The notes beneath the pieces were generated by a model, which saw nothing but the letters and a program-made list of their open reading frames with translations, searched no databases and had not been told where the DNA came from. The translations under genes were made by a program, and so were the position numbers. From an uncultured Clostridia bacterium (GTDB lineage: Bacteria > Bacillota > Clostridia > Christensenellales > CAG-314): a stretch of DNA of 58,770 bases. Location: positions 1 to 58,770 of the forward strand of contig CANQND010000008.1 in assembly GCA_947625115.1 (NCBI GenBank). Direction: 5' to 3'. Below, piece after piece: positions 1-1,489 of this stretch (position 1 is the first letter of the stretch; every line of letters starts with the position of its first letter).

Positions 1-198
1 GTTTTTCTTTAATGTGGGGGATTCGGACCCGCGGAGAGCGCGGGACACAAACCCGAATCCCGTCTCCCGCTCCATTGCTCGGACAGAGATGTCCGAGCGT
101 TTTTCTTTAATGTGGGGGATTCGGACCCGCGGAGAGCGCGGGACACAAACCCGAATCCCGTCTCCCGCTCCATTGTTCGGACATTTTGTCCGAGCAAT
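1..198 (+). repeat. 98-bp tandem repeat with tRNA-tail-like end and terminator, two copies
   Basis: Two near-identical 98-bp units start at 1 and 99. Each holds a nested hairpin: outer stem GGGATTCGG/CCGAATCCC (18-26 with 53-61) and inner stem CCCGCG/CGCGGG with loop GAGAG (28-44). The stretch ATCCCGTCTCCCGCTCCA follows, which resembles the 3' end of a tRNA (glycine type), but no cloverleaf is present. Each unit ends in a terminator-like hairpin: GCTCGGACA/TGTCCGAGC at 77-98, and a version at 173-197 whose stem is extended by two pairs. The window begins on the T-run that would end a preceding unit, so the array probably continues upstream. Open frames across it are a by-product of the repeat. 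Confidence 0.85.
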
Positions 199-250
199 TT
201 TATATATTGTATGTCGGACCCGCGTGGATCGCGGGACCCCCGAATCCCGT
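199..250 (+). repeat. Degenerate third unit of the 98-bp repeat
   Basis: The inner stem CCCGCG/CGCGGG is kept (219-224 with 230-235), but its loop is TGGAT instead of GAGAG. The outer stem is reduced to TCGG/CCGA (214-217 with 240-243), and the 3' flank still reads GAATCCCGTC. The tRNA-tail-like part is missing. Conservation of the stem with a changed loop suggests that the structure rather than the sequence was kept. Confidence 0.7.
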
Positions 251-259
251 CATTTACTA

Positions 260-299
260 AAAAACAGGTGTTTTTAACCAAAAACGCCTGTTTTTCTTT
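260..299 (+). terminator. Rho-independent terminator after the repeat array
   Basis: A 16-bp stem (260-275 with 280-295, one G-U pair, loop AACC) is followed by CTTT. It occupies the same place after the third unit as the smaller hairpins do after units one and two. Confidence 0.75.
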
Positions 300-360
300 G
301 TTTTTTGCCCGATTTCTAGGGATAAGTAACCAAAATCACTTTGTGCGTTACATTCCGATT

Positions 361-570
361 TTGCCGATTTTCGCCTGTCGGATAATAAAAATTTACACCT
401 AAAAAATGGTGCAAATCTGCTTTGAGTAATATTTTTGGTAACATTGAATGCTAAATTTGTACCTACTTTGTTGATTTTCACCCGTCAGACAATAAAAATT
501 AGCAACTTAAAAATGGTGCAAATTTGTGTTTGGTAACATTCTTGGTAACATTGGGTGTAAAATTTTTACC
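361..570. repeat. Diverged AT-rich tandem duplication, period about 107 bp
   Basis: Segments of about 100 bp starting near 361 and near 469 share GATTTTC(G/A)CC, then a run like ACAATAAAAATT, then AAAAATGGTGCAAAT, GGTAACATT and a final TTT(G/T)TACC in the same order. The copies have diverged by substitutions and small indels. No coding frame runs through them. Confidence 0.7.
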
Positions 571-940
571 TAAGGTTTTGCCAAAAGGTGCATTTTTTTT
601 CAAGTATTACTTGAACACCTATTAAATTTTTAGTGAATTGAAATTTCCAAAATAATTTTCTTTGTTTGGGACAAGCGGTACATTCAAACCATTGTGGCTT
701 GCAGGGCTGTTAAACCCCGTTCTTACGCCGTATAACGATTGGAAAGGCGATTAAATAAATAATGCAAGTTAGGGTATTCCTCTAAATAAGTCGCTTTGCA
801 GGAAGTCAATTACAAGTTCGGGTATAAACCGATATTTGTATTTATTTCCGCGTGTGGTGCGAAAAGCGTGTTTGCACAAATTCTTGCTTTGTAAAACAAA
901 GTTTTTATTTGAAAGTTCTTTTTTGTTTGGGCGTAAAAGA
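571..940. other. Gene-free stretch
   Basis: I see no gene of credible length. A 13-base palindrome CAAGTATTACTTG lies at 601-613. A short open run of about 30 codons ends near 754 (reading LFGTSGTFKPLWLAG and on) and could be a gene remnant, but I do not recognise it. A weak hairpin CTTTGT/ACAAAG with a following T-run lies at 887-906. Confidence 0.5.
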
Positions 941-975: not shown

Positions 976-1489
976 ATGTATGTGGAATTGCACACGGCGC
1001 GGCTTGCGTTATGCCCGATAAGATTGGGCGACCTTAAAACCGCACATAAATACGCGATCGATCCCTACGTGACGAAATATATGCTTTTTCTGCCCTATAA
1101 AACCGAAACATACACGTTCAATTTCTTGTCGTTTGCGGAAAGCGAATGGCAAAAGGACAATCCCGACGATTACGAATTTGCAATTTGTCTTGACGGCTCA
1201 CACAGGCGGAATTAACCTCGCACGTATCGGCGATGGCGTTTACGAAACGGGTGGGATAATAGACAAATCGTTTCAAGGCAAAGGCTATTGCACAGAGGCG
1301 GCAAAAGAGGTAGTGCGTTTTGCCCAAAGCATAGGTGCAAGGAAAATAATTGCGCAGTGCGATTGGCGTAATAGCGCGAGTTGTCGCGTTATGGAAAAAT
1401 TGGGAATGACCCTCACGGAAACAGGGAAGCGCACCTATCGCGACGGTCGTGGAACAGCCACGGAATACACTTATATGTTGTCTTTTTGA
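976..1489 (+). pseudogene. GNAT N-acetyltransferase, frameshifted
   Basis: The first 70 or so codons (976 to about 1200) read as the N-terminal half of a GNAT acetyltransferase of the ribosomal-protein or RimJ-like type. They begin MYVELHTARLALCPIRLGDL. The continuation, with GGINLARIGDGVYETGGI, the acetyl-CoA site FQGKGYCTEA and the usual C-terminal NSASCRVMEKLGM, is in the next frame (frame 1 to frame 2), ending at 1489. The join lies near 1195-1205. Joined, the two parts make a normal-length protein of about 170 residues, so one small indel broke the gene. A sequencing or assembly error is the other explanation. Substrate unknown. Confidence 0.8.

Follow-up and report, generated by a model that had tools for sequence, protein, structure and literature searches.

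To our knowledge, RtT repeats have been regarded mainly as an oddity of tRNA operons in enterobacteria, for example tyrT. The E. coli tyrT/tyrV locus, taken here as a yardstick, contains 3.1 copies of a 178-bp unit in tandem behind the tRNA gene, each ending in a 19-nt copy of the tRNA-Tyr tail with CCA. Within each unit an inverted copy of the T-arm, matching at 19 of 22 positions (0/2000 shuffles), pairs with this tail. The Rfam RtT model (RF00391), run on tyrT as a positive control, gives four matches, and the annotated E. coli RttR ends exactly at CCA. Release of the RtT RNA from the transcripts of tRNA operons has been reported (PMC4986893), and the repeat was described as similar to BIME repeats (PMC2965389).

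Copies of a tRNA 3′ end are also left behind by integrated elements. Reading fragments of a tRNA tail as integration scars is standard, and for Islander an integrase must be present and the tDNA and the fragment must be at least 2 kb apart (PMC4383910). In Dehalococcoides, 11 copies of the 20-bp end of ssrA are located downstream of ssrA and are linked to integration (PMC2764846).

The array described here lies in the draft genome (83 contigs) of an uncultured Clostridia bacterium, and the stretch that was analysed, referred to as the window, comprises bases 1–58,770 of contig C8. Positions 12–261 contain two 98-bp units and a decayed third unit (Table 1). TRF reports a 98-bp unit in 1.9 copies with 98% match over positions 1–183, and the first 77 bases of the window recur exactly at an offset of 98. 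Each unit carries, in this order, the tRNA-Gly(GCC) T-arm in inverted form, a short hairpin, a 22-nt copy of the tRNA 3′ end down to CCA and a terminator. In finer detail, GGGATTCGGACCCGCG (18–33) precedes a loop of 5 nt and CGCGGG, after which a linker leads to the 22-nt tail CCGAATCCCGTCTCCCGCTCCA, which is identical in its two copies (53–74 and 151–172) to the 3′ end of tRNA-Gly(GCC) in the relatives. Both complete units fold stably (−46.8 kcal/mol, z −4.1 for unit 1; −44.2 kcal/mol, z −4.8 for unit 2), and none of 200 shuffles folds as well.

An earlier note on this DNA, made from the sequence alone, had proposed this 98-bp plan of a nested hairpin, a tRNA-Gly tail with CCA and a terminator, and the TRF result, the folds and the 22-nt identity bear it out. 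The same is true of its observation that the second terminator stem is longer by two pairs, as the terminator-like sites at 76–99 and 172–198 have 10 and 12 pairs, correspondingly. The third unit was said to keep the inner stem with a different loop, and it does retain the 6-bp stem (219–224/230–235) with the loop TGGAT; TCCCGCTCCA is lost, and the fold of unit 3 as a whole is no better than chance (z −0.5 versus shuffles). A terminator in every unit, as the note had it, holds for units 1 and 2, but the one behind unit 3 (260–295) belongs to the remnant of an integrated element. The array was also described as entering from the left in mid-unit. It is indeed cut at the left edge, but the window starts exactly at the start of contig C8, so that the cut reflects a break in the assembly and the number of units counted is a lower bound.

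Table 1. Features at the left end of the window (positions in the window).
Positions	Strand	Feature	Evidence
1–11	+	End of T-tract and spacer of a preceding unit or of the tRNA-Gly terminator, cut at contig start	Identical to the sequence after the unit 1 terminator; same after the tRNA-Gly terminator in G019
18–33	+	Unit 1, inverted tRNA-Gly(GCC) T-arm copy GGGATTCGGACCCGCG	Reverse-complemented T-arm matches at 16/16 nt; 0/2000 shuffles as good
28–44	+	Unit 1, inner hairpin CCCGCG-GAGAG-CGCGGG	Fold; between species the loop is variable and the stem mostly conserved
53–74	+	Unit 1, 22-nt tail copy of tRNA-Gly(GCC), from T-loop to CCA	Same 22 nt at the 3′ end of tRNA-Gly(GCC) in relatives
76–105	+	Unit 1, intrinsic-terminator-like hairpin and T-tract	Near-identical to the tRNA-Gly terminator in G019
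116–131	+	Unit 2, inverted T-arm copy	Identical to unit 1
151–172	+	Unit 2, tRNA-Gly(GCC) tail with CCA	Identical to unit 1
172–204	+	Unit 2, longer terminator-like hairpin and T-rich tract	Terminator scan
207–261	+	Unit 3, decayed; inner stem 219–224/230–235 kept, tail shortened to CCGAATCCCGTC (240–251)	Covariance model R1, 43.3 bits, E 8.5e-10
253–663	+	Putative remnant of an element that had been integrated in a tRNA-Gly tail (integrase-proximal, attL-side arm)	Matches the tRNA-adjacent region of G009 and G021; 228–306 matches the attL region of G012
705–830	+	Relic of an older unit of the long type, similar in tail, linker and spacer to the units of G005, G018 and G006	Local alignment scores 39–62 versus shuffle maxima 26–32
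976–1489	+	GNAT acetyltransferase gene bordering the locus in the genus; split into two frames in the window	

The array is similar to tyrT/RtT in that tandem units behind a tRNA gene end in its 3′ tail with CCA, an arrangement that is seen directly in relatives and is deduced from synteny in the window genome, and in that the inverted T-arm copy of each unit pairs with the tail. The E. coli repeat differs in its association with tRNA-Tyr, its occurrence in enterobacteria, its 178-bp units and the absence of any sequence in common with the window; the window units, unlike tyrT/RtT, carry intrinsic-terminator-like hairpins. At its gathering score the RF00391 model has no match in the window or in the loci of relatives that were tested, and the array is not a member of this family. 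Tandem tDNA islands, such as those of Islander and at Dehalococcoides ssrA, resemble the array in having copies of a tRNA 3′ end downstream in the same orientation (here the tails at 53–74 and 151–172, both ending at CCA), in that these copies begin in the T-loop and in the use of the tRNA-Gly tail by integrase elements in relatives. The starting point of the 22-nt tail in the T-loop is also that of the target-site copies of the integrated elements in G013, G017 and G010. Unlike the Islander and Dehalococcoides cases, the units here are of 98–190 bp, gene-less and equipped with an inverted tail. The array matches neither RtT nor integration scars alone; it is an RtT-like plan at an integration site.

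No tRNA or tmRNA gene is present in the window, and tRNA-Gly(GCC) was not found in the contigs of this draft genome, which has a contig break at the array. Contig C3 of the same genome terminates with tRNA-Gly(TCC) and tRNA-Arg(TCT), which are the first two genes of an eight-tRNA cluster. In relatives this cluster reads Gly-Arg-His-Gln-Lys-Lys-Leu-Gly; its last gene is tRNA-Gly(GCC), and the element lies directly behind it, between the cluster and GNAT and HAD genes. The GNAT and HAD genes follow the array in the window as well, with ackA ~10 kb beyond them both there and in relatives. Given the cluster end on C3 and this synteny, tRNA-Gly(GCC) is most likely to lie just left of position 1, in the assembly gap. 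The same element after the same tRNA and before the same downstream genes supports the suggestion of the earlier note that the repeat derives from tRNA-Gly and sits beside a tRNA cluster. Contigs of several relatives likewise break within a few hundred bases of tRNA-Gly(GCC). Several other tRNA genes of the window genome (G000) are found exactly at contig ends (C7, C35, C36 and C61), as expected if these sites are occupied differently among strains. The GNAT gene is also broken or shortened in G009, G019 and G021.

Several layers can be distinguished in the locus. Segment 253–663 is without an integrase gene and holds the terminator at 260–295 and 107-bp direct repeats at 366–572, found by TRF. 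In G012 the tRNA-adjacent sequence runs on into the apparent end of an integrase gene, and 253–663 is read, from these similarities, as an element arm that has lost its integrase. The two 107-bp repeats are diverged, contain the motif TTTGGTAACATT and are possibly integrase arm sites. From left to right the locus would comprise younger units, the element remnant and an older unit, where the order of age is judged from decay. Among the ORFs of the first 12 kb of the window, examined by reading and in part scanned against Pfam, no integrase-like ORF was noticed.

The 3′ end of tRNA-Gly(GCC) is also an integrase attachment site. G013 contains at this tRNA a 17-kb element with an integrase, bounded by copies of the tail (G013:C4:101000-118300; L062/L107/L061), and in G012 and G017 integrase elements at the tRNA-Gly tail are indicated by sequence. 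The ORFs of the 17-kb element, named from reading alone, presumably encode repeat-domain surface proteins, a DNA methyltransferase-like protein and a phosphoadenosine-phosphosulfate-reductase-like protein.

The covariance-model search of the genome and its relatives, which the earlier note had suggested, did find further copies. Matches to the unit occur in ten genomes of the genus, including that of the window, and always at the tRNA-Gly(GCC) locus; those inspected elsewhere are the tRNA itself. When 396 genomes of the order were scanned with a pattern allowing up to 3 mismatches, the form with the variable loop was present in the genus only, and matches outside the genus were almost all the minus strand of the tRNA itself. 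A dispersed REP-like repeat was considered for the tRNA-Gly unit and rejected, as the unit is present at one locus only. The element is patchily distributed across the genus. Its presence and absence need 6 changes on the tree and 51 of 500 shuffles are as low, so that neither one origin nor clustering is shown by this distribution. In G019, G021 and G008 the unit terminators resemble the terminator of tRNA-Gly in the same genome, which points to local duplication; the terminator hairpin is not retained in the units of G005, G006 and G018. The public records in which the pattern occurs exactly belong to uncultured Clostridia with isolate names beginning with “Lapin”, which suggests a rabbit source. 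An exact pattern scan of viral contigs found neither the unit nor the tail, and two phage records have the 22-nt tail alone in common with the unit.

The changes among the units had been taken in the earlier note as signs that structure is maintained, and a family of small RNAs had been proposed. Pairing in the two stems amounts to 87% across 15 units taken from ten genomes, and shuffles reach equal counts. Double changes are found at 2 pairs in these 15 units, as many as in 68 of 500 shuffles, while most departures break pairs and the older units break the hairpin. The Rfam scan of the window returned no family. A scan of positions 1–1000 for sigma-70-like promoters found one site, at 941, which is fewer than in shuffles, and none near the array. 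Neither proposal is supported for the window array, where covariation does not exceed that of shuffles and neither a promoter nor an Rfam family was found. The conserved stem with differing loops could also reflect correction from the tRNA.

Modules of the same build and of unrelated sequence follow many other tRNAs of the genus, so that the repeat is real and exemplifies a poorly known type of tRNA-attached repeat. In four genomes of the genus, 7 of 70 distinct tRNAs are followed within 800 bp by another copy of their own 20-nt tail, and 1 of 70 has such a copy upstream. A second family (model R2), reached from tRNA-Ser(UGA) of the window genome, has no recognisable sequence in common with the tRNA-Gly unit. 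The model search finds R2 modules in 22 of 25 genomes of the genus and in none of 56 others. A same-strand tRNA is located within 500 bp upstream of 25 of the 33 distinct R2 units and downstream of none, and the R2 core is almost always 113–120 bp after the tRNA end; among the 8 units lacking an upstream tRNA, 6 have less than 300 bp of upstream sequence. The host tRNAs number at least ten, namely Ser-UGA, -CGA and -GCU, Val-UAC, -CAC and -GAC, Met, Arg-CCU, Pro-CGG and Glu-CUC. The genus-specific R2 modules, of ~190 bp, occur at loci L219, L234, L242, L265, L218, L249, L263 and others. Rfam at gathering scores has no family for the module, and no earlier description of such tRNA-attached modules was found in the literature searched.

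An R2 module consists of a stem from CCA onward, a terminator-like stem and, at the far end, a hairpin formed by an inverted tail and the tail of the host tRNA. The stems directly behind CCA differ in sequence from module to module and pair in each, as in GGATGTGCCC/GGGCACATCC, TTGAGCGGC/GCCGCTCAA and GGCGAGCG/CGCTCGCC, and this covariation is reached in 0 of 2000 permutations. RNAalifold on whole modules recovered chiefly the terminator stem, as the outer stem is not brought into register by the alignment; this stem was tested by permutation instead. The inverted tail pairs with its own tail as well in 4 of 2000 permutations (0 of 5000 in an earlier set). The tail pairing is lost in several modules. 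At tRNA-Ser(UGA) both states of the site are seen. It is empty in G012, where the terminator AAACAGAATAATACGAACCC immediately follows CCA, and occupied in G009 and G004, where a module of 190 and 183 bp, correspondingly, precedes the same terminator and ends in the species' own tail. This is the pattern that precise insertion at the tRNA end would leave, and it could also result from precise deletion. The inverted arm of the G009 module (L219) is nearer to the tail of tRNA-Ser(CGA) than to that of its current host, which would fit a transfer of the module from one tRNA-Ser gene to another.

A third form is found outside the genus. In G031, which belongs to another genus of the family, identical 99-bp units are located behind tRNA-Ile(GAT), and each contains a terminator, ATGAGTGGGCTC (the inverted tail), a loop and GAGTCCACTCATTCCTACCA. 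These units are unrelated in sequence to those of the window and alike in plan and length. The G031 array (L277, minus strand) is interrupted by an assembly run of N, and three 41-bp terminator repeats lie beside it.

The explanation that we favour, with a probability of about 0.7, is an RtT-like array of tRNA-tail hairpin repeats that is located directly behind tRNA-Gly(GCC) and grows at the 3′ end of the tRNA. A unit consists of a terminator and then a hairpin, the 3′ strand of which copies the last 22 nt of the tRNA and the 5′ strand of which is an inverted T-arm copy. Units would be added or duplicated at the tRNA end, presumably through recombination at the T-loop/tail core, which is the site used by integrases as well, and distal units would decay. 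Any RNA would be produced by read-through from the tRNA and have a tRNA-like CCA end, by analogy with E. coli RtT. Observations that back this explanation are the anatomy, the place, the restriction of this sequence family to one genus, the recurrence of the plan at other tRNAs and one empty-versus-occupied site. Against it, the hairpin at this locus has no support from covariation and is broken in older units, tRNA-Gly(GCC) was not found in the window genome, the terminator hairpin is lost in the units of G005, G006 and G018 and the tail pairing in several R2 modules, and the intact integrase elements at tRNA-Gly(GCC) carry end sequences other than those of the units. A serious rival for the tRNA-Gly array, to which we give somewhat less than an even chance, is that it is only debris at an integration hotspot, that is, attachment-site scars of successive elements and local tandem duplications, homogenised through recombination with the tRNA and functionless. 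It overlaps the growing array on origin and differs in denying the hairpin any role. The integrase elements occupying the tRNA-Gly tail in G013 and, by sequence, in G012 and G017, the element remnant inside the locus, the lack of covariation in the tRNA-Gly units and their decay toward the distal end all fit such an origin, as do the integration-linked 20-bp ssrA ends of Dehalococcoides (11 copies; PMC2764846). However, an inverted T-arm is not expected of simple scars, the inverted-tail plan is found again, with unrelated sequence, in E. coli and behind other tRNAs, and the sister modules have covarying stems at a fixed distance from the tRNA. On account of this covariation we hold that the class, taken together, amounts to more than debris, and a functional hairpin at tRNA-Gly becomes, by analogy, more plausible.

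It is unlikely that the units are small-RNA genes, whether released from the tRNA transcript in the manner of RtT or made from promoters of their own, and selected as tRNA mimics, for example as substrates or decoys of RNase P or another tRNA-processing enzyme. The stable folds ending in CCA, the covarying stems of the sister modules, the reported release of RtT RNA from tRNA operon transcripts (PMC4986893) and the end of RttR at CCA are in line with this possibility, but there is no promoter-like site near the array, every unit lies behind a terminator, the tRNA-Gly units do not covary and their presence in the genus is patchy. An assembly artefact, namely a collapsed or chimeric repeat at the contig end, is highly improbable. 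The window does begin exactly at a contig end, its first 77 bases repeat exactly and many contigs of relatives also break at tRNA-Gly(GCC), but the units differ from one another and the array is present in independent assemblies. In G005 three units lie in the middle of a 119,828-base contig, which contradicts the collapsed-repeat artefact allowed for in the earlier note. Integron cassette arrays (attI/attC) grow at one fixed site, and each of their units ends in a hairpin-forming inverted-repeat site. By a working analogy, the units and sister modules might be gene-less cassettes inserting at the T-loop/tail of tRNAs, where the tRNA is the fixed receiving site, the inverted-tail/tail hairpin an attC-like folded recombination site, a terminator for the tRNA is supplied by each cassette and new cassettes join next to the tRNA. 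We regard this as a rather improbable variant; unlike integron cassettes, the units carry no genes and their fixed site would be a tRNA gene.

The same plan of tRNA tail, inverted tail and CCA exists in at least three sequence-unrelated forms in uncultured Clostridia, and the tRNA-attached repeat plan recurs independently. The tRNA-Gly form has units of 98 bp and the tRNA-Ile form units of 99 bp, while the form of ~190 bp follows about ten further tRNAs and has covarying stems and an empty site with which it can be compared. If the plan is general, tRNA 3′ ends would repeatedly spawn hairpin repeats that mimic their own acceptor/T-arm end, and this would connect, in a testable way, the role of tRNA genes in integration with tRNA processing and with the origin of small RNAs linked to tRNAs.

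Two other arrangements were observed at tRNA-Gly(GCC). In G010 (L063:5510-6107), ~600 bp rich in TATATCATCA-type repeats lie between the tRNA and a second copy of the tail and represent a different filling of the site. In G021 (L055), a slightly altered second tRNA-Gly(GCC), with a tRNA-Leu end in front, is located downstream of the array and represents a larger duplication at the same locus.
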